Notes under the pieces: model-generated
Seen by the model: only the letters and a program-made list of their open reading frames with translations
What the model was told of the DNA's origin: nothing
The model's database searches: none
Translations under genes and position numbers: made by a program
Shown: piece after piece, positions 24,920 through 38,932 of the stretch
Layout: each line of letters starts with the position of its first letter
How positions within the stretch are numbered: position 1 is the stretch's first letter
From: an uncultured Deferribacteres bacterium
GTDB taxonomy: Bacteria; Zhuqueibacterota; JdFR-76; DREG01
Reading direction: 5' to 3'
DNA: 64,000 bases
Assembly (NCBI GenBank): GCA_913009825.1
Contig: CAJVYQ010000014.1
Span: forward strand, 1 to 64,000

Positions 24920-26224
24920 TTAACTGTATCGGATCCACTTTATCAATTCCGGCAGCGTGGGACGCTTGCCATACATCAAAATGCCAACGCGGTAAATTTT
25001 GCCCGTCAGCCAGATCATCGCCAGAATAGAAAGGATCAAAATCAAAATGGACAAAGCGACTTCCCAAACCGGCGGCATGAGCACCGAGACCCGCATAAAC
25101 ATGATGATTGGCGAAAAAAACGGAATCATGGATAAAATAACAGCAACGGTTGAATCCGGATTACCTATAATATATACAATCATTATTATCGGAACAATAA
25201 GAAAAACAATAACCGGCATCTGCATCTGCTGTGCTTCCTGATCGGAATTGACCATGGCGCCCACGGCCGCATACATAGTGGAAAAGAACAGAAAGCCGAG
25301 GACAAAAAACAGAACAAAAAACAGAATCACATTCAGCGGCAGCGATGGTACGCCCATCATAGTTGCCGGACCGGCGCCAAATATCTGTCCGACCTGAACC
25401 CGGTAGGCCGAAACAAGCAGCATAAAAACAGCCCAAATCAGGAACTGCAATAATCCCACCGCGCCGACACCCAGAATTTTCCCCGTCATCAATTGAAACG
25501 GTTTCACCGAAGAAACGATCATCTCAATGACCCGGGTGTTTTTTTCCTCCACTACACTCCTGGTGATGGTTGCCCCGTAAAGCAGCATGGCCATATATAA
25601 AATCATCACCAAAGCATACGTTACGCCAAAAGTAAACCCCTGGTCTTTCTTTTCTTCGCCGCTCATTGCCACTTTAAACGTTTCCAGCCGTACTCCCCTG
25701 GTGAGCCGTTTAACTGTTACCGGATCGAAGCCGCTCTTTTGCAAACGGATGGTTCGTACCACTTCGGAGACCGCTGTTTCCAGGGTTCTCATCAAATTAA
25801 AATTACTCACATTTTTTGCATAAAACATCACCTTTTTACGTGACATTGAGCTATCGTCCGCAAGCACATCTTTGGGAATAACCATGTAACCGCTGATATC
25901 GCCATCCAGAACCTGTTGTGCAAGCCCGGATTTTAGCTTTTGATAGCCGGTCAATTCGGTTTCCTTTTTTAACAGCGTGTACATCGGCTTGCCTTCTTTG
26001 GTGGTGTCATCCAGAACAGCGACAAGTGGAGAAAATACCTGGTTGGAATAATCGATAATGACAAATTTTCGCTCTTTCTCGGAATTGAGGGTACTGAGTA
26101 AAATGGGAACAATCAACAAGACAACCATAAGCAGCGGCAAAATAGCTGTTCCGATAATAAATCCTTTGCTTCTAACGCGGGAAACAAATTCTCGTTTTAT
26201 CACAGAAAACATTTTCATGGACAT
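24920..26224 (-). CDS. NatB-like ABC-2 permease
   Basis: A 434-aa integral membrane protein of the ABC-2 family: one N-terminal helix (ILPLLMVVLLIVPILL), a large extracytoplasmic domain (about 50-180), then about five helices toward the C-terminus. The topology matches the Na+ exporter/antibiotic-efflux permease NatB. A likely internal start at 26218 (MKMFSV) exists. It is paired with the ATPase upstream, 28 bp apart. Confidence 0.85.
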   Translation of the reverse strand: MSMKMFSVIKREFVSRVRSKGFIIGTAILPLLMVVLLIVPILLSTLNSEKERKFVIIDYSNQVFSPLVAVLDDTTKEGKPMYTLLKKETELTGYQKLKSGLAQQVLDGDISGYMVIPKDVLADDSSMSRKKVMFYAKNVSNFNLMRTLETAVSEVVRTIRLQKSGFDPVTVKRLTRGVRLETFKVAMSGEEKKDQGFTFGVTYALVMILYMAMLLYGATITRSVVEEKNTRVIEMIVSSVKPFQLMTGKILGVGAVGLLQFLIWAVFMLLVSAYRVQVGQIFGAGPATMMGVPSLPLNVILFFVLFFVLGFLFFSTMYAAVGAMVNSDQEAQQMQMPVIVFLIVPIIMIVYIIGNPDSTVAVILSMIPFFSPIIMFMRVSVLMPPVWEVALSILILILSILAMIWLTGKIYRVGILMYGKRPTLPELIKWIRYS

Positions 26225-26252
26225 GATTCACTCCGGTTAGGTTCAATAAAAA

Positions 26253-27152
26253 TTAGTTTTCAGACTTCACGGTTTCTATAAAGATTTCATTGAGAGACGG
26301 TTCAACAATTTCGAACCGGTAAACTTCCGCCACTTTCACGAAATCCCGCAACAATTTTTGCGGATTTTCTCCATCTTTCAAACGGATTTCCACGTAATTA
26401 CCGTAATCATCATATTTCTCGATGGCCGGATTTTCCTTTAAAAATTTGGCGTCGCCGGAATATTGCAGTTTGATCCGGTCATGACTAAACCGACTTTTCA
26501 CCTGGTGCAAATCGCCCTGCAGAACACTTTTCCCTTTGTCAATCAAAAGGATGGAATCGCACAATTTTTCTACCTGCTCCATCAGATGAGTGGAAAAGAT
26601 GATGGTCGTCCCCTTCTGTTTGAGATCCAGGATCACATCCTTCACCAGGTTTGTGTTAACCGGATCCAAACCGGTGAACGGTTCATCCAAAATAATCAAC
26701 TTCGGTTCGTGCATAATGGTCACGATGATCTGCAATTTTTGCTGCATTCCCCGCGACAGGTCTTCCACTTTCTTCTCTTTCCAGGCGGAAAGCTCAAATT
26801 TTTTCAACCAATAGTCTATTTGGGAAGAGATGAATGCTTTCTTCATCCCTTTTAATTCACCGAAAAAATGCAGAACATCACCAACCTTCATTTTTTTATA
26901 CAGTCCCCGTTCTTCCGGCAGATAACCAACCCGGTCTAAAACATCGATGGAATTGCGCTGGTCAAATATTTTAATGGTACCGCCATCAGGGAGAATGATC
27001 CCCATGATCATACGGATGGTGGTGGTTTTTCCCGCGCCGTTTGGCCCTAACAGGCCGTAAATTTGCCCTTCCGGAATCGTCATGCTGAGATCTTTTACGG
27101 CGCAAAAACTACCAAATGATTTACTGATTCCCGTTACTGTGAGTGCATTCAT
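26253..27152 (-). CDS. NatA-like ABC transporter ATP-binding protein
   Basis: A 299-aa ATPase. Walker A GPNGAGKTT near residue 37, signature LSRGMQQK near residue 130, Walker B LIILDEPFTGLDP near residue 150. The C-terminal extension (about 230-299) is that of NatA/DrrA exporters. With the permease at 24920 it forms an exporter for ions or small hydrophobic compounds; the substrate cannot be told. Confidence 0.92.
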   Translation of the reverse strand: MNALTVTGISKSFGSFCAVKDLSMTIPEGQIYGLLGPNGAGKTTTIRMIMGIILPDGGTIKIFDQRNSIDVLDRVGYLPEERGLYKKMKVGDVLHFFGELKGMKKAFISSQIDYWLKKFELSAWKEKKVEDLSRGMQQKLQIIVTIMHEPKLIILDEPFTGLDPVNTNLVKDVILDLKQKGTTIIFSTHLMEQVEKLCDSILLIDKGKSVLQGDLHQVKSRFSHDRIKLQYSGDAKFLKENPAIEKYDDYGNYVEIRLKDGENPQKLLRDFVKVAEVYRFEIVEPSLNEIFIETVKSEN

Positions 27153-28869: not shown

Positions 28870-29469
28870 TCAAATATGAAGTTCAACAATGTCGCCATCC
28901 ATCAACTGATATTCACTGGTCACTCTCTGCCCGTCATACTTGCTATGACATCACACCCGGGCATAACACAAATGGCTGGCAAACTCACAATGAACCGAAA
29001 CAGCCAGATCAAACAAGGTACTATTCTGCGGGAGAATAAACGGTTCATTTTTATCCACCGGTTTTCCCGGCGGTTTGGAAAACACCCGGACAATTTTCAA
29101 ACCGGAAAACAGGGCTTTGGCAAATTCATTAAGCCTATCTTTATGATAGACAGACAACGGATGGATTTCCATTTCCTCGCCGTACATTTCCATCAGGAAA
29201 TTCAGAATTTCTACATCCGGGTTAGAATCAATTTTGTTGCAAAACAGGATGCTCCCGATAAAAGCGATGCTGACATTGCCGGGTTCTTCCGGAACATTTC
29301 GAACCGTTGCAATCTTTTTGTCCTGTAATATTTCCCTTGTTTTTTCCACCTGTGCCGGCGGATCGGCTGCCGGGGCATTAACAATCAGTGCAACCAAATC
29401 CGCGTTCCCCGGAAAATCTCTGTGATCCTCCATGTCTGTATCGTGAGACAGCGGCGGGAAAAGCGGAAA
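28870..29469 (-). pseudogene. Remnant of a TGS-domain (DRG/Obg-like) GTPase
   Basis: An open frame of about 160 aa (29433 to 28951) encodes the G4 region (LFCNKID), a TGS-type segment (FSKPPGKPVDKNEPFILPQNSTL, quoted in outline) and stops in the motif LCYARV-stop. The reading frame continues past the TGA (28951-28953) as CHSKYDGQRVTSEYQLMDGDIVELH, then a TGA at 28870-28872. In relatives this place reads ARVWG...DGQRVG...DGDVVELH, so TGA replaces the Trp codon. G1-G3 are missing: the sequence begins in frame directly behind the lysophospholipase stop (FPPLSHDTDMED). It is a 5'-deleted and nonsense-mutated gene. Confidence 0.75.
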
Positions 29470-30329: not shown

Positions 30330-31016
30330 TTAATCTTCTTTGTTGAATTGTTTTGGATAACGTTTTCCCAACACAAACTCTTTCCCATCCCATAATACCG
30401 GGATGCCGCGAATAAGGCAAAAAATCAAAGCGGAATAAGCGAGAACCTGTCCCACAATAAAAAAAATAATCAGCAATGAATGGGATAAATTCCAGTATCC
30501 GGCAGATATCCCTTTGTTAATCGCGATCAAACCTCCCAACCAACTAAATGATAAAACTTTGGCCACCGCATAAGACGACCGGCTGAAGGGAGAGCTTACC
30601 AAAAATCGCGTTAGCTTAGACCGCATCATGGTTTTCTTACCAAACGGAGTTTTCCCTTCCGAAAAAGCCAGACTGCGCACCATATCCACCAAAAATCCAC
30701 GGGTGACAATGATAATTGGAATCCAAAAGCTGATATCGCCATGGGCGGCAAAAAATATCCAAAATGTATTTTCCACAATTCTGTCGCCGGCAATATCCAG
30801 CAATGCACCAAAATCCGATGCTACATTTAATTTACGGGCAAGATAGCCATCCAGCGAATCCATGTAAATGACAACAATGGTTAGAAAAAAGGCGATGACG
30901 GCAAAAATTTCAGTTAATGTAAAAAACCAAATCGTGACAAAAACCAGCACCACCCGAAAAATGCTGACAATATTGGCTGTTAGAGGAGCAATTTGGGGTG
31001 TAATTTTTTTTGTCAT
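30330..31016 (-). CDS. CDP-alcohol phosphatidyltransferase family protein
   Basis: A 228-aa integral membrane enzyme with about six hydrophobic segments. The complete motif DG-x2-AR-x8-G-x3-D-x3-D is seen in DSLDGYLARKL and FGALLDIAGD near residues 53-78. It transfers a phosphatidyl group from CDP-diacylglycerol to an alcohol (glycerophosphate, serine, inositol or similar). It is upstream of the lysophospholipase with 20 bp between, so the pair may act in phospholipid remodelling. Confidence 0.9.
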   Translation of the reverse strand: MTKKITPQIAPLTANIVSIFRVVLVFVTIWFFTLTEIFAVIAFFLTIVVIYMDSLDGYLARKLNVASDFGALLDIAGDRIVENTFWIFFAAHGDISFWIPIIIVTRGFLVDMVRSLAFSEGKTPFGKKTMMRSKLTRFLVSSPFSRSSYAVAKVLSFSWLGGLIAINKGISAGYWNLSHSLLIIFFIVGQVLAYSALIFCLIRGIPVLWDGKEFVLGKRYPKQFNKED

Positions 31017-31610
31017 GAATTACACTCTCAATTAGTACGTATTAACAACGTATAAAACGATGTACCGGCAAATGTTTCAAAAACTTATTAAATGGTCGAA
31101 AGGCTTAATTAGTGCCTGAACGAAAACACTCTTTTTGTCATTTCGATCCGCCAAAAGGCGGAGAGAAATCTGTTTAACCCTTTGTATACAGATTCCTCAA
31201 CTCCGCTATGCTTCGCTCGGAATGACATATTTTACGAGTTTTCGTTCAGACACTAATTAAAGAAATAAATTCTGGATAAAAAATCAAGGAGATTCTAACC
31301 CGAATAATACATAGTATTTTTAAAGGAACTCGGGATAACCTTAATTATTCAATAAGTTGGGATAATTTAAAAACTAAAGTTTGATGCACTCGCAAAAAGT
31401 TTAAAATATTTGTTATGTGTCCATATATGGTAGATAATGAAATATTTTCAATACTATATATTGATCTTATATGCCATTTCTTGACTTTTTACGAGTTCGA
31501 CAAGTTTGAAATGGCAATTTTAATTTTTTAATAATTCTATGTATAAATCTGTTTCAGATAATTTATGAAGAATTCAGGTTAGAGAAAAAGATGACAGGAC
31601 AGTTATCTTT
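31017..31610. other. Non-coding region with a family 1 element
   Basis: A 594-bp gap. It includes the MITE-like element at 31104-31260, and beyond it only AT-rich sequence with another ccttaattattc motif near 31335, as seen at 27183. No gene is supported. Confidence 0.5.
31104..31260. repeat. MITE-like element, family 1, copy B
   Basis: A 157-bp element with near-perfect inverted ends: ttaattagtgcctgaacgaa at the left and ttcgttcagacactaattaa at the right. The ends match copy A at 727-857. TTAA at both edges may be a target duplication. The interior holds atttcgatccgcc...ggcgg and tcattc/gaatgaca arms, so the whole can fold as one hairpin. Confidence 0.85.
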
Positions 31611-31919
31611 TCATGGTTGACGCAATACCCCATAATGATCATAAAATGGCTCACCGAGTTCCCTCAAAAATCCGTAATGATCATAAAATGGTTCTCCGGG
31701 CTTACGCAATCTGCCATAATGATCATAAAATGGCTCACCGGGTTGACGTAAAATATCATAATGATCAAGGAACACACCACTTACAGGCTTCTTACCTGAT
31801 TTACCATTTTCCTTTGGGACTGCAGGTTTGCGCAGGCACCCGTAATGATCATAGAATACCTCACCCGGTTTACGAAGCCTACCATAATGATCATAATAAG
31901 CTTCAGTTGTTGAATACAT
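31611..31919 (-). CDS. Small protein of tandem 14-residue YDHYG repeats
   Basis: A 102-aa protein made almost entirely of a 14-residue unit with consensus GEPFYDHYGRLRKP. Two units lie at the N-terminus, then a linker (KENGKSGKKPVSG), then four units. The DNA repeats at 42 bp and each copy contains the palindrome tgatca. A strong ribosome-binding site (GGAGGGAG) lies four bases upstream of the ATG, supporting translation. It has no signal peptide. The spaced Tyr/Asp/Gly/Arg pattern suggests a small beta-hairpin repeat, reminiscent of beta-flower or RHS-like repeats, but I recognise no named family. Confidence 0.6.
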   Translation of the reverse strand: MYSTTEAYYDHYGRLRKPGEVFYDHYGCLRKPAVPKENGKSGKKPVSGVFLDHYDILRQPGEPFYDHYGRLRKPGEPFYDHYGFLRELGEPFYDHYGVLRQP

Positions 31920-32405
31920 ACTCCCTCCGGGAAGTTTACACGACTACTTTACCCCGACAAAAAGGTACTATTTTTTTAAAGGTCAAAATTTTGTTTTTCT
32001 ATTATGGACTCCTCCCTTTCATTTTTTGTCGCTTTTTGAAGCAAAAAATGATATATGAATCTATTTGAAGCAGTTTATTGCTCCAAAGCGCCCAGTTCCG
32101 TTGGGATTTCTATAAAAGGCAAAATCTATACCCATTATTCAAAAAAGATATTGAATTGGGCATACAAACCCTATTTTTATACTCCTCTGTTAGCCGTCTA
32201 ATTTTTATTTTACCTTCCGGTGGTATGGCACAAAAACGTCATTCGATGTGCACAAAAATAATTGCAAGATCCATCTATGGATAAATAAAGATAGGACAAA
32301 ATGTTAGAAAAATCACCCCAAAAATCACTTTGCCTGGAGTTTAAAAAAAATCCGACCCCTAAAATTAAACGGAGCTCATGAATGTAAGGTCTCTCTTTAA
32401 CCAGG
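31920..32405. other. Intergenic, nothing recognised
   Basis: A 486-bp AT-rich gap. Short frames in it look like chance. It should contain the promoter for the repeat protein (minus strand, just above 31919). There is no T-tract terminator visible for the long operon that ends at 32406. Confidence 0.45.
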
Positions 32406-35400
32406 TTACTTCGCCACACTCGCGGAAAATTTCAGAACCTGGTTTTGTTCCCTGTTACCAAGGAAGATGGAAGCTTTACTGCCATACTTGTCGATGCCAA
32501 ATGAATAGACCGACCCGGGTGTTAAAGAAGTTGTTTCCGTGCCGATCACTGTTTCGATGTAATTTCCATCCAAATCGCAACGATGGATCCCATATCGATC
32601 CGCGATCAGGAGAAATGGCGTACGATAAATATGAATTTTGCCTCCCGCAGAAGAGATATCAAAACCCTGAGAATCCTCTTCTACTGCGATACGGGTTGGG
32701 AAAACAAATTTTGCCATTTCCCCCTGTCGATCTGCAGTATTACGGCCAAAGCCACCAAAATACCGGATATAATTACCAATACTGTCAAATACAACGACCC
32801 TGTGTGTAGCAAAATCGGTGATGTAAATATTGCCCCGGGAATCAAGCGTAATCCCTTCCGGTTCATTCAACCGGCCGGCATCATAACCGGTAAAACGTAA
32901 GGGAAACAATTCATTACCTTCCGTTTGTGACCCGGAGACATCATAGCGTAACAATGCCTTTTTATTCCTCACATCGATCACATAAAACTCATGGCTTTGG
33001 GGATTGTAAACCGCATCTCTTAGCTGGATTTGGCTGCTCAGATCATTGAAAAGTTTTGAGTCGGGTGGTAACTCGATACCGTTTCGATGAATGATCATAT
33101 TTCGGTCGAATCGTTGAAGGAAAGAAGCAGATTGGAGTGGCATGCCATTAAAAGTAGCGGGACGGAAAACAACTTTTTCAGAAAGAGGCACAGACATGCT
33201 CTGTTTGCCCGGCATTAATACATCGAACTCCTTTTTATAAATGTAGAAATTTTCTTTGTCGATGGTCAGAATAACATGGGCTCCTACATTCAATACCGAA
33301 GAACGAAAATGATTTTGGGAAATTTCCGTCAGGTCTTTCCCGTTTATGTCCACTTTGATTGCAGAAGCGGATGGTTGCGGCAACATGACAAAAATATCCA
33401 CAACGGATGTTTCCCGGCGTAACAGTTCATTAATTATTCCCGGGACCGCTTTGACGGAACGTTTTCTAAAAATTGAACTAACCGGCACGGCGCTGGCCAG
33501 ATAAACTTCGGATTTTGGCAGGGCATACTTTTTAAGCAGGTCCAAACTTTGACGCAGATATTGGAAGCGCAGAAATTTCCGGTCCGCTAATTGTTCATAA
33601 GATTGATCGAACAGACGATCCGGAAAAACCACATTTTGGATGTTTAATCCTTTCAATTCTTTGCTGCCGTCCGCTTTATTTTCGCAGAGATTAATAGCGG
33701 CGTCCGCGTTAAGATACCAAAATTTACCATCGGGGATATTTTGAGTTTTCTGCTTGATAATTTCGTAACATGTTTTTGCTGCATTTCCATAGCCGTTTTC
33801 CCGGAGAATTTCGGCAAAATAATATAAAGAGCGCAAACTGTGTTTTTTATTAATCAGATCCCGGAAAATCTTTTTTGCCTTCGTATATTGCTCAGCGAAA
33901 AACAGACTTCTCCCCTGAATATACCTGGCTTCAAATTGATAGGGTGCGATTACTTTGGCTAATAAATTAGCTGATTCTTCAAAAATTTTCTTTTTATTAC
34001 CCTCATCCCCCTGTATTTCAGCTTCCAGCGATTTGGCAATACCCTGGTAAAACGCAGTTTCATTAGATTTTTTAAAACCTGTGTAATAAAAAATACTGTT
34101 CAATTGATTTATATAATGTAATCGATTTTTTCCGCCTACTGTTGCCGCTTGCCGGAGAAGATATTGGATAATCGCCGCAGCTTCCTTAAACCAATCAGGA
34201 GAGTTTCCGCCCTGGAGAACATTTTGCCAAACATCATACCCCAGTTCTAATTTTGTAAGTTGCTTTAAAAGGTGAGTTTGTAATTTCAGCGATTCTTCCG
34301 TTGGCTGAAATTGATTGAGATATTTTTCCAGTTCGTGTAGTCTGCTATTATTATCGCGGGCCCCTTCCAAAAACAGCAGTCCCCGCCAATATCTGGCATA
34401 ATCCATGAGAATGGAAACACGGGAATCGGTACTTTGATTTAGATTCCGCTGCACAAAAGTATTCAGATTTTCAATCCCGGTCGGTTGATGAACGATAAAT
34501 TGAACTGCACCAAGCCAAAAATAAGCTTCAACAATTCCCCGGGAATTATTTTCCGGCAGCGCCTGAAAATAAAAACTTCGTTTATCGTTCTGATATAAAT
34601 TAAAAAAACTCTCATTCTCATCAATTTGCGAAGTATTGTGATCGGCAGTACCAAAACGGAATCGAACTTCTTTGGCCAACTCCGCTAAATTAACTTTGCG
34701 AATGACATCTATAAATTTTTTCTTGTCCTCATATTGCGAAGTTGAAAAATAGATGTTCAGCCATTTCATTGCCTCTGCATATTTTAAGAATCCACCATAC
34801 GCCTGGGGAACACCTGAATATTTGGCAAAAAGATTCCCATAACGTGTCTGACGAAAGAAATACAATGCGGTTGCCGAAGCAGAAGCTTGCTTGCGGCTAT
34901 CAACCAGATTGGCAAACATAGCTTCAGAAATCACCTGATAAATCTTCCCCGTTTGAAATTTAATATCATTCAACCTGATGTCGGCAGTAATTTTAAACAA
35001 CGGTGAAGCAGTGGATCGTGATAATACTTTATTAAATTGGGCGGCTCCGTCCTGAAAAACAGACAATATCTTGTTGACTTCCAACTGAGTAAGAGATGCT
35101 GCCAGCGTATTAAACTTTCTGATAATTCCTTCCCTGAACCGTGATTCACCAGCCATGAGATAAGATTGCAGCAATACGGAATCCGGAGCATCCGCCGATA
35201 CTTTTAAAAAATTTATATAGGCGTTATCCAATTCTACATCCGGTTGTTCCCCTGTTTCTGCCCGTCTGAAATAACACCAACCTCTTTTCAACTGGGAGGC
35301 ATAGTAGATTTTAGGATAACGTTGTTTAAGGGATGAATATTTCAAAACCCCCTGAAAGGCCTTATAAGCCTGGCGGAAAGCATCCCGGGACTTACCGATC

Positions 35401-35639
35401 TGCTGTTCTTCCATCCCAAGATTGTAATAGGATTCCGCTAAATAATAAGTGGCAATATCCTGGCTCTCCGGGTGTTCGCTAATCCATGATTTTATTTCTG
35501 TGATTGCGGATTTGTAATCACCATTATTAAAAAAGTTCATTCCGGCAGATTTTGTGAACTCCTGGGCAAAAATCCCGGATAATGGGAACAGCAAGAAAAG
35601 AGTGAAAAAAATAAATATTTTTACTGCCTTTTTCGGCAT
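32406..35639 (-). CDS. Exported TPR/NHL-repeat protein, last gene of the envelope operon
   Basis: A 1077-aa protein with a cleavable signal (MPKKAVKIFIFFTLFLLFPLSG, cleavage after FAQ). Residues ~30-650 are helical TPR-like repeats. Residues ~700-850 are beta-rich. The C-terminal ~200 residues form an NHL-type beta-propeller, with blocks such as LNEPEGITLDSRGNIYITDF and RVVVFDSIGNYIRYFGGFG. Such proteins are usually periplasmic or surface scaffolds. It starts 34 bp after the TonB-like gene and closes the seven-gene run. Confidence 0.8.
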   Translation of the reverse strand: MPKKAVKIFIFFTLFLLFPLSGIFAQEFTKSAGMNFFNNGDYKSAITEIKSWISEHPESQDIATYYLAESYYNLGMEEQQIGKSRDAFRQAYKAFQGVLKYSSLKQRYPKIYYASQLKRGWCYFRRAETGEQPDVELDNAYINFLKVSADAPDSVLLQSYLMAGESRFREGIIRKFNTLAASLTQLEVNKILSVFQDGAAQFNKVLSRSTASPLFKITADIRLNDIKFQTGKIYQVISEAMFANLVDSRKQASASATALYFFRQTRYGNLFAKYSGVPQAYGGFLKYAEAMKWLNIYFSTSQYEDKKKFIDVIRKVNLAELAKEVRFRFGTADHNTSQIDENESFFNLYQNDKRSFYFQALPENNSRGIVEAYFWLGAVQFIVHQPTGIENLNTFVQRNLNQSTDSRVSILMDYARYWRGLLFLEGARDNNSRLHELEKYLNQFQPTEESLKLQTHLLKQLTKLELGYDVWQNVLQGGNSPDWFKEAAAIIQYLLRQAATVGGKNRLHYINQLNSIFYYTGFKKSNETAFYQGIAKSLEAEIQGDEGNKKKIFEESANLLAKVIAPYQFEARYIQGRSLFFAEQYTKAKKIFRDLINKKHSLRSLYYFAEILRENGYGNAAKTCYEIIKQKTQNIPDGKFWYLNADAAINLCENKADGSKELKGLNIQNVVFPDRLFDQSYEQLADRKFLRFQYLRQSLDLLKKYALPKSEVYLASAVPVSSIFRKRSVKAVPGIINELLRRETSVVDIFVMLPQPSASAIKVDINGKDLTEISQNHFRSSVLNVGAHVILTIDKENFYIYKKEFDVLMPGKQSMSVPLSEKVVFRPATFNGMPLQSASFLQRFDRNMIIHRNGIELPPDSKLFNDLSSQIQLRDAVYNPQSHEFYVIDVRNKKALLRYDVSGSQTEGNELFPLRFTGYDAGRLNEPEGITLDSRGNIYITDFATHRVVVFDSIGNYIRYFGGFGRNTADRQGEMAKFVFPTRIAVEEDSQGFDISSAGGKIHIYRTPFLLIADRYGIHRCDLDGNYIETVIGTETTSLTPGSVYSFGIDKYGSKASIFLGNREQNQVLKFSASVAK

Positions 35640-35673: not shown

Positions 35674-36264
35674 TTACCAACTAATGATTTTCACTTCGTT
35701 CCGTTTCAGACCATTTTCAATCATATATAAACGGCCCACTTTGATTGGAGTATCCGGATCTACCCCTTCTTTCCGTCTTAATTTTGAGATATCGATGGTC
35801 AATTTTTTGCCAATTGCTCCCACATTAAAGCGAATTGTGATAGGTCCTTCTTTATAAGGTTTAAAAGCCCAGGTTTGTAAAACCCGACCAACCATCTCCC
35901 CAGCCTTGGTATGCCCCGGGCAACGTACATCACTGATCGGATTAAAATTTAACGAACCGTCCGGTCCAACATTGGCTTTAATTTTCACCTCCGCAGTAAG
36001 GTCGATACTTTTCAATTCTGCCCAATCCAAACTTTTAATATTTGGTTTGGACATATCGATGGCAAAGATAAGAGGTCTGATAATAGGTCCGGTCAGGATT
36101 AAACTCTGAGTGCCGGGTCTTTCCGGAGGAACTTCAATTTCCTCAACCTGCCCTAAATCTCCATCGTCTGCGGGCAAGCGTGACATGGCAATCATATAAT
36201 ATGAAATGGCCACCGCTAAAATTAATGCAACCGCGCCCAAAAAAATCAGAAAAATTTTTTTCAA
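35674..36264 (-). CDS. TonB-like membrane-anchored protein
   Basis: A 196-aa protein with a single N-terminal membrane helix (IFLIFLGAVALILAVAISYYMIA), a short acidic linker with Pro (EEIEVPPERPG) and a C-terminal TonB-like domain at ~85-155, where GRVLQTWAFKPYKEGPITIRF matches the TonB_C pattern ...sW.f.P....G. The usual long Pro-Lys spacer is missing, so it might not span the periplasm alone. It follows two exbD genes, supporting a role as force transducer. Confidence 0.75.
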   Translation of the reverse strand: MKKIFLIFLGAVALILAVAISYYMIAMSRLPADDGDLGQVEEIEVPPERPGTQSLILTGPIIRPLIFAIDMSKPNIKSLDWAELKSIDLTAEVKIKANVGPDGSLNFNPISDVRCPGHTKAGEMVGRVLQTWAFKPYKEGPITIRFNVGAIGKKLTIDISKLRRKEGVDPDTPIKVGRLYMIENGLKRNEVKIISW

Positions 36265-36291
36265 TTTTAAACCCTTTTTTCAAAGTTGCTG

Positions 36292-36924
36292 TTAAAATTG
36301 AATTACAACATTTCTGCGCAAAACGCTTCCTTCCCGTACCATCTTTTTTTCAATACTTTTGCTGTTTCTGATATCATCGATGGTTCCGCCAACACATCCG
36401 TATTGAATATTTTTATACTTTGTTCTCGATAAAATTTCCACCACATCAATAACTACAGCATAGGGCAATTCATCCGGACATCTTATCATGGCAAAATATT
36501 TTTCTTCCGGATGTGCATCCGCCTGGGTAACTAACGTCATAAGTTTAGCTTTAAGAAAGTTCCCACTGCCATCTTGCGAAATAATCGGATATGTATTTTT
36601 TGTGATGATTAATTCCTTTTTTTGCTGCAGACGCTGGGCAACACTCATAAATGTTTTCTTATCAATCTGAGTGATCTCTTTCACCAATTTCTCCGTTACA
36701 AAAGGATCGATATACAAAAACGAATTCTCATCAATCAATTGAATGAGAACCTGGGCATAACCCGGCTCATTTTTGGGAGTAGGGATGAATATTCTTCTTT
36801 CTTCATTAGGTAGAGAAGCGAAAAAGATCGACACGAGAAAAAAGATTAACAAAATAAACACAACATCCATCAGGGAGATCAGTTGCATTTTTTTGTTTGT
36901 GCTGTTCTCTTTTCTAAACGCCAC
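36292..36924 (-). CDS. ExbD/TolR-family protein, copy 2
   Basis: A 210-aa proton-channel subunit with a short cytoplasmic N-terminus, one membrane helix containing the conserved Asp20 (LISLMDVVFILLIFFLV) and a periplasmic domain longer than in ordinary ExbD. Located 4 bp after the other exbD gene. It pairs with the ExbB-like protein to form a proton-motive-force-driven motor. Confidence 0.87.
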   Translation of the reverse strand: MAFRKENSTNKKMQLISLMDVVFILLIFFLVSIFFASLPNEERRIFIPTPKNEPGYAQVLIQLIDENSFLYIDPFVTEKLVKEITQIDKKTFMSVAQRLQQKKELIITKNTYPIISQDGSGNFLKAKLMTLVTQADAHPEEKYFAMIRCPDELPYAVVIDVVEILSRTKYKNIQYGCVGGTIDDIRNSKSIEKKMVREGSVLRRNVVIQF

Positions 36925-36928
36925 AATA

Positions 36929-37531
36929 TTACTCCTGTCGAAACATAGTTCTAAAAACCAGGCTCGGGATTAAATCTTCGTACGAGCTGCATTTCTCAAT
37001 AATAAAATTGATGATACGAAAAGAGACACTTCTATCCGCGCGAATTTCAATTCGATTCGTCAGCTTTGCAATCCGGAATTTCTCCTGCACATAGCGGTCC
37101 AATTGATCGTTGATCAACTTTACAGCCGGCAGATTCATAAACTCACTTTTACCCAATGTGACATATTCCGTTGGTAAAACATCTTCCCGCTGGTAAGTTT
37201 TGGCAAACTTTTTAGCATCTTTGTATGCAACGGCCCCGGCTTTTTCCATATCATAATTTTCGAACGGAAGCAACACAGAAACTTGCAATCCCATTTCCGG
37301 TTTTTCTTTATTCACCGGCATGATTTCGATCATCATTGTCTCCAGTTTTTCGTTCTGGTTAACCTTTGCAGTCCCTGCCGCCTCAGGTAAGTTCAACTCC
37401 AAAGTGGATTGCCCTACTTTGGGCGGAACGGGAGAATAAGTCAACAAAAAAAAGATCAACAGAAGAAAAATAATGTCGATAAAAGTCGGTAATTCAAAAT
37501 CTTTTCTTGCTTCGATCCTACGGAAAGCCAT
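36929..37531 (-). CDS. ExbD/TolR-family protein, copy 1
   Basis: A 200-aa single-helix protein with the conserved membrane Asp19 (LPTFIDIIFLLLIFFLL) and a periplasmic domain. It differs strongly from copy 2 outside the helix, so this is a heterologous ExbD pair and not a recent duplication. It lies 21 bp after the exbB-like gene. Confidence 0.88.
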   Translation of the reverse strand: MAFRRIEARKDFELPTFIDIIFLLLIFFLLTYSPVPPKVGQSTLELNLPEAAGTAKVNQNEKLETMMIEIMPVNKEKPEMGLQVSVLLPFENYDMEKAGAVAYKDAKKFAKTYQREDVLPTEYVTLGKSEFMNLPAVKLINDQLDRYVQEKFRIAKLTNRIEIRADRSVSFRIINFIIEKCSSYEDLIPSLVFRTMFRQE

Positions 37532-37552
37532 ATTTACCTCTAAAAAGTCATT

Positions 37553-38932
37553 TTACAACTTTTCCGACACATCCACGTAAATTTGTTCCCATTTACTATA
37601 GATCCAGTCCAGTTTATTTTTGAACAAGTAATAAAACATAACTAAAATAATACCAACACTTAAACCGAAAATAGTTGTCCAGAGAGCTTCATTGATTCCG
37701 CCGGCCAGCTCGGAAATTTTGGCGGCAGTATCCACAATACCTCGCTCACTCTGTGCGGCCAATCTTTGAAAAGCCATAGAAATTCCGGTTACAGTACCAA
37801 ATAAGCCGATCAGAGGAGCGGTAGCCGATAAATTCCAGAGCCATTCGATCTTGGTTTTACCTTTCAGTTGTTCCAATTCCATCAAAGCCCGGTTTTCTAT
37901 CGCCCGGTCAACTTCTTCAGAAGCTTCCATAAATTTGAATCCGTTGGTTTCATGATTGGACAAACCGGCGCCGATGATTCGCCCCGTGGGATATTTCCGG
38001 AATTCTTTGATATCGTCTTCCAATTGTTTGATCTTCTTTTGTCCCACGTCCCGCCAGAAAGTTGCAGATTCAATACGCAATTTATCGATATCGATGCTTT
38101 TATCACCTTCCATTCTGGGGGTTTTTTCAAACAATTTTTCCACCGATTCAATCACTTTCTGCCACCGGATAATGATTCCCCCCTCGCCAAAAAATTTACT
38201 ATCTTTTCTCTGTTGAAATTGGGCTTCATAATTCAATGGGGTAATTATCGACTTTAAATTCCATGGGGTAAATGGAAATATTTTGCTCAAAGTGAGATGG
38301 AAAAAATTATAACTAATTGTGAGAATTCCAAACAGAAGAAACCACCAGATAGCGTGGAATGCCATTTTCCCCAGGAAGGTTGACTTATCAAACACTTTAC
38401 CGTAACCAAGTAGCGTGAGAGGAAACCGGCCGCTTACCGGCAGATACCAAAGCCAGGAAGTCTGTTCATCCTGATCGATGGTTGAACTGAGATTTACCTG
38501 TCTCCCCGGTTGCTGCCAGGCAACCTGAGATTGGTAGATTTGGTTGTTTTCATCAACAGCCTGAACACGAAAAAAATACTTTTTGCCTACTTTAAGCCCC
38601 TCGATTTTACAGGAATCAAGTTGACCTACCCGAATTGTACTTGCCTGGGCAAAAGTGCTGTCCCCTTCTGTGTACATCACTTCGTAATTTTTCAGTTTGT
38701 TCAGATCCGTGTCAATATACTTTCCGTCCTGCATCTCTAAAACCCGCCAGGATAATATAAAATCTACAGTTTTGGGAATACCCAGAAAATTTTTATAAAC
38801 TGTTCTGTCGATACTATCGATCTGAATATTGAATTTTTGCTGTGCATTTACAGAAAACACAAAGCTTATGATCGATAAAAACAAAACTGTTAAGGGTAAC
38901 AACCCCTTCATAAAACTTGCATTGCGATTCAT
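37553..38932 (-). CDS. ExbB/TolQ/MotA-family proton channel with signal peptide and FN3 domain
   Basis: A 459-aa protein of unusual build. It starts with a cleavable signal (ending FSVNAQ), followed by a fibronectin type III domain (about 33-145, with KKYFFRVQAVDENN), a membrane helix near 192-215, a long cytoplasmic helical region, and the MotA/TolQ/ExbB core near 345-445 (APLIGLFGTVTGISMAF and INEALWTTIFGLSVGI). Normal ExbB lacks the FN3 and signal. The FN3 part would sit in the periplasm and could sense or bind the secreted partner proteins encoded in the same operon. Confidence 0.87.
   Translation of the reverse strand: MNRNASFMKGLLPLTVLFLSIISFVFSVNAQQKFNIQIDSIDRTVYKNFLGIPKTVDFILSWRVLEMQDGKYIDTDLNKLKNYEVMYTEGDSTFAQASTIRVGQLDSCKIEGLKVGKKYFFRVQAVDENNQIYQSQVAWQQPGRQVNLSSTIDQDEQTSWLWYLPVSGRFPLTLLGYGKVFDKSTFLGKMAFHAIWWFLLFGILTISYNFFHLTLSKIFPFTPWNLKSIITPLNYEAQFQQRKDSKFFGEGGIIIRWQKVIESVEKLFEKTPRMEGDKSIDIDKLRIESATFWRDVGQKKIKQLEDDIKEFRKYPTGRIIGAGLSNHETNGFKFMEASEEVDRAIENRALMELEQLKGKTKIEWLWNLSATAPLIGLFGTVTGISMAFQRLAAQSERGIVDTAAKISELAGGINEALWTTIFGLSVGIILVMFYYLFKNKLDWIYSKWEQIYVDVSEKL

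Follow-up and report, generated by a model that had tools for sequence, protein, structure and literature searches.

Positions 31611-31919 of the window (the whole stretch of 64,000 nucleotides analysed here, from an uncultured Deferribacteres bacterium) hold an open reading frame of 102 codons built on a 14-residue repeat, and the question is whether this frame encodes a genuine protein and, if so, of what kind. The frame lies on the minus strand, which the original prediction had left unstated while giving the coordinates correctly, and runs intact from an ATG to a TGA through a 5-residue leader and seven 14-residue slots, six of which are recognisable as repeat units. The Shine-Dalgarno sequence GGAGG (31924-31928, minus strand) stands 4 nt 5' of the ATG, in agreement with the strong ribosome-binding site that had been claimed. 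A search of the minus strand upstream of the frame gave no sigma-70-like promoter, and a Bacteroidota-type promoter was not seen near it either.

The six units, all on the minus strand, are EAYYDHYGRLRKPG (unit 1, 31863-31904), EVFYDHYGCLRKPA (unit 2, 31821-31862), GVFLDHYDILRQPG (unit 3, 31737-31778), which is the most diverged, EPFYDHYGRLRKPG (unit 4, 31695-31736), EPFYDHYGFLRELG (unit 5, 31653-31694) and EPFYDHYGVLRQP (unit 6, 31614-31652), in which the stop codon replaces the last Gly. Units 2 and 3 are spaced 28 residues apart, with the in-register slot VPKENGKSGKKPVS (31779-31820, minus strand) between them. As a seventh unit this slot was rejected: of its 42 bases 13 agree with the unit consensus, and 1339 of 5000 random windows did as well. 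The six units follow the motif (E/G)x(F/Y)(Y/L)DHY(G/D)xLR(K/Q/E)(P/L)(G/A), with D, H, Y, L and R at unit positions 5, 6, 7, 10 and 11 identical in all six units, while residue 9 varies between its invariant neighbours (R, C, I, R, F, V). The 42-bp register claimed earlier is strict across the frame: Tandem Repeats Finder (TRF) reports a period of 42 with 3.6 copies and 73% matches at 31615-31767, and a scan for tandem [FY]DxYG at 42 bp gave three matches versus 0.00 expected (absent from 100 shuffles). The units had also been called near-identical. Six recognisable units there are, but a pair of them shares only 7-12 of the 14 residues, with 7-18 of the 42 bases different, and the consensus put forward as the unit sequence, GEPFYDHYGRLRKP, occurs exactly only once. 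That the repeat number could vary between strains, as was also put forward, is a conjecture.

It is this divergence that allows the coding question to be addressed. Between units pS is 0.773 and pN 0.208, a ratio of 0.27, as against a median of 0.82 in column permutations of the units, none of which (0/5000) came as low. When five units were compared in all six frames, the reading frame had the lowest ratio (0.27), one antisense frame gave 0.51 and the other four 1.18-1.73. Since synonymous sites are near saturation and amino-acid changes are rare, the array must be old, and selection must have acted on its protein sequence, whether today or in an ancestor. This is direct evidence that the encoded protein was under selection, maybe partly in a gene ancestral to the present one, and it supports the proposal that the frame is a protein. 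That the frame arose by chance in repetitive DNA and that no protein is made is what one might suppose from its shortness, the lack of a homologue and the absence of a visible promoter; the low pN/pS ratio and the strong Shine-Dalgarno sequence make this very improbable. The codon log-odds speak against a protein, as those of the frame are near zero (0.017 versus 0.18-0.30 for eight genes of the window; 0.034 for one of its own antisense frames), a measure that is weakened here because the composition is unusual, with 13 Tyr, 12 Gly, 10 Pro and 6 His in 102 residues (pI 7.85).

A second feature of the units lies at the DNA level. The stretch TGATCATTA, which contains GATC, is invariant in all six units (31614-31904) although synonymous sites are near saturation. 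In simulations with the codon usage of the window an invariant run of at least 9 was obtained in 46 of 20000 trials with six units, and a run of 11 in 207 of 20000 with five units, a statistic that was picked post hoc with the data already seen. Gene conversion or a constraint on the DNA may be responsible. In the extreme, the six ATGATCAT-like palindromes with GATC, most of them separated by 42 bp, or four helical turns, would be protein-binding or recombination sites and coding would be secondary, as the constancy of TGATCATTA in the midst of varying synonymous positions and its rarity in the simulations would suggest. We consider this quite improbable, since the changes cluster at synonymous positions in a single frame, a bias that a site acting only as DNA would not produce, and since GATC is already dictated by the Asp-His codons. 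Nor is the core a genome-wide element: GAYCAYTAYGG has 16 matches in the genome, of which 5 fall inside the frame and 11 outside it, and the reversed control gives 8.

Does the protein belong to a known family? In Pfam five weak families appeared up to E 5, the best match having an E value of 0.025, below the cut-off; NCBIfam and PADLOC gave no match; the best match in PHROGs was PHROG 13729, an unannotated family (E 0.0021, residues 5-31), and that in the PDB had an E value of 0.033. The original prediction that no known family matches is thus supported, and Rfam had no match for the frame either. In its own genome the protein matches only itself and the gene is single copy. One of two relatives of the same family gave a match (E 0.52), and with the protein as query 6 other genomes of the 81 of the phylum gave matches at E 0.02-0.08, the pattern [FYWL]D.[YF]G being present at none of the loci (L002-L009). 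A two-unit profile picked out one other genome of the phylum (G024, E 1.9e-4); this candidate was rejected, the 14-residue stretch holding a stop codon and its frame overlapping an open frame of 1643 codons. The same profile found nothing in five other genomes and 395 genomes of another phylum, where a positive control was absent. Scanning a collection of species genomes (described as covering 84,980 species) with 8-residue peptides, which reaches close relatives only, yielded 50 pattern stretches, none of them confirmed by tblastn. Together with the 81 genomes of the phylum, this collection provides the strongest of the negative results. Two scans of viral contigs yielded 4 and 32 stretches, likewise unconfirmed. 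Phages gave one match (E 0.3) and plasmids none.

Tandem [FY]DxYG at 42 bp occurs in at least 116 stretches of species genomes, distant relatives possibly lying beyond those listed, and in 28 viral stretches. The loci inspected (L025-L168) were set aside as relatives: they are mostly Gln/Pro/Gly-Tyr-rich tails, together with a phage protein that has YDGYG twice and with Mucispirillum YYDKYGRPVPPP, and the LRxPGE linker was noticed in none. By tblastn run without filter or composition correction, from which eleven loci overlapping the frame itself were excluded, the best match (E 6e-8) was a Gln/Gly/Tyr-rich protein (L040), which we read as a compositional likeness, with a distant kinship possible. 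Mucispirillum L084 (YYDKYGRPVPPPPVYYDKYGRP) and other YDxYG-rich proteins have [FY]DxYG at the same 14-residue spacing, but in Pro/Gln/Gly-rich contexts and without the LRxPGE linker; their likeness looks like composition plus convergence. The YDHYG motif occurs in none of the papers searched, and those listed for 14-residue repeats concerned mostly HDAC6, the results on tandem repeats being general. Judged from these comparisons, the repeat protein is an orphan rather than the member of a family, a singleton across all collections searched. The original prediction had held that a lack of homologues and of expression, together with a frame disrupted in relatives, would speak against it: homologues were indeed not found, whereas a disrupted frame was not seen, no copy of the gene having been found in the relatives.

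How, then, did the gene come to its present place? On the same strand it is preceded by a gene for a 1077-residue TPR/NHL protein (32406-35639) and followed by a CDP-alcohol phosphatidyltransferase gene (30330-31016). The order of these two genes is conserved in one relative from the same taxonomic order (G006), whose transferase is 61% identical, and there the repeat frame is absent from between them. Among the tblastn loci for the pair (L011-L024 and L185-L189, most of which carry about 1.5 kb of flank only), G006 is the only genome other than our own in which the transferase gene stands beside the TPR/NHL gene. A second copy of the TPR/NHL protein, 32% identical, is encoded about 34 kb away on the same contig (G000:C14:69753-72956, L188). 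Directly upstream of the TPR/NHL gene and on the same strand, 35674-38932 encode ExbB, two ExbD proteins and one more small protein, which we take to be a Tol/Ton-like energiser operon with the TPR/NHL protein as partner. At 28951-29433 there is a frame of 160 residues with a C-terminal match to the TGS domain (E 7e-6), by eye like the end of an Obg-type GTPase; it may be a partial gene or reflect a frame problem.

The gap between the transferase and TPR/NHL genes measures 1389 bp here as against 106 bp in G006, and it is full of transposon-like repeats. Element A (31105-31260, 156 bp) has 23-bp terminal inverted repeats that are 96% complementary, forms a very stable hairpin and is MITE- or REP-like. 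Element C (about 31292-31585, with the ends CTAACCCGAAT...ATTCAGGTTAG) is interrupted by element B (about 31369-31506), which is nested inside it. Relatives of A and B are numerous in the genome (49 rows with the self rows counted), those of A being diverged, and contig 7 carries a copy of C (G000:C7:23540-23722, L210) without B, which provides the empty-site comparison. Next to this copy lies a frame (L210, 1844-2146) that by eye is like a BrnT-type toxin. The repeat frame with the 490 bp upstream of it has no second copy in the genome. We infer from the single relative that the DNA with the frame was inserted in this lineage, into what is otherwise a simple intergenic region, rather than lost in G006.

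These surroundings bear on a rival reading of the selection signal. The frame might be what is left of a larger repeat protein, one acquired by horizontal transfer and now decaying, the signal predating the truncation. One of the transposon-like repeats ends about 27 bp from the stop codon, the gap is short in the syntenic relative, the codon scores are unlike those of host genes, the third slot (VPKENGKSGKKPVS) appears decayed or replaced, and nothing similar was found in the phylum, all of which suits such an origin. Yet the frame runs unbroken through its 102 codons and still has its ATG and a good ribosome-binding site; moreover, its two ends lie near unit borders, where random truncation would not tend to leave them. 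We therefore regard a decaying remnant as rather unlikely, though as the most serious of the alternatives.

What the protein looks like can be predicted only in outline. AlphaFold without alignment gave a mean pLDDT of 54.3 and a pTM of 0.31, and the values were 56.4 and 0.42 when sub-segments of the protein itself served as rows. Both low-confidence runs placed strands of two residues at a spacing of seven, one at (F/Y)Y and one at LR, a pattern that would correspond, if the models are taken at face value, to a single small hairpin or turn of a coil in each unit. Foldseek found no match at E <= 0.001 (best 0.53) and VIA-align no chain with Z >= 2 among 158. The top Foldseek rows, glucan- and choline-binding repeat proteins with the adenovirus fibre beta-spiral lower down, were set aside as non-significant.

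The units read aromatic-aromatic-D-x-x-G-x-L, which in choline-binding and YD repeats is the signature of the hairpin. Repeats that bind choline or glucan (CW_binding_1, which we take to be Pfam PF01473), which head the non-significant Foldseek list, have aromatic-aromatic-D-x-x-G-x-hydrophobic in common with the units described here. Their unit is about 20 residues long, whereas here it has 14 residues and a secretion signal was not seen; the weak Pfam families include none of these repeats, only a pseudomurein-binding repeat below the cut-off (E 0.11). The RHS/YD repeats have the motif Y-D-x-x-G-R-L, which resembles the unit, and are longer and located inside giant proteins; their models in Pfam and NCBIfam had no match. 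A repeat of exactly 14 residues, forming a left-handed parallel beta-roll, occurs in the heads of trimeric autotransporters such as YadA and BpaC, as described in PMC9543794. With only 102 residues, the repeat protein is too short for the head-stalk-barrel architecture outlined there (PMC9543794); it ends in a repeat unit, and neither a stalk nor a C-terminal membrane barrel was found by Pfam. For a beta-roll of the YadA type there are the models of pLDDT 54-56, without a Foldseek match at E <= 0.001.

The explanation that we favour, still tentatively, is that of a real, old, lineage-restricted small soluble protein with six probable hairpin units, predicted to be a multivalent binder in the cytoplasm. 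The location is suggested by the N-terminus MYSTTEAYYDHYG, which by eye has no signal peptide. Each unit would form a strand, a turn and a strand, made of the aromatic pair (F-Y), the D-H-Y-G turn and x-L-R, followed by the linker (K/Q/E)-P-G-E-P. One surface of Tyr, Asp, His and Arg would thus be presented six times and could bind a repetitive or anionic ligand multivalently; because the six surfaces would be identical, a multivalent binder appears the likeliest function. Residue 9 (R, C, I, R, F, V) might tune the individual units. By analogy with modular nucleic-acid readers one could even imagine that an array of fixed 14-residue hairpins with a variable residue 9 reads its ligand unit by unit, which would be a class previously undescribed; to this conjecture we give very little credence.

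The repetition of a conserved motif in which a single residue is free to change from unit to unit, in a small frame of its own, is reminiscent of multi-core RiPP precursors. The units would then be cut out, or modified and cut, into short peptides differing at residue 9. There is no leader peptide, the first unit beginning at residue 6. A Pfam scan of 13 neighbouring or candidate proteins found, in the genes closest by, NHL/TPR, the CDP-alcohol transferase, a hydrolase, ExbB/ExbD, an ABC transporter and MttB; an ABC-2 transporter pair is encoded at 24920-27152, 4-5 kb from the repeat frame. The only RiPP-like enzyme among the 13, a B12-radical SAM protein, is encoded about 12 kb from the frame, and no export gene was adjacent among the proteins scanned. 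Because none of them is an adjacent modification enzyme, we think a peptide precursor improbable. In our ranking the hairpin-repeat binder stands first and the remnant next; the peptide precursor is less likely, and DNA sites or a chance frame are the least likely.

Orphan frames of about 100 codons are mostly unprovable as genes, since there is no homologue for comparison. Here the internal repeats are their own comparison set, and selection on the protein can be detected without any relative; this is the one uncommon feature of what is, as an observation, a sound finding. If the protein does not fold, it is an ordinary lineage-specific repeat protein. If it does, a compact beta-hairpin unit of 14 residues would join the list of modular repeats and would be of interest to protein designers.
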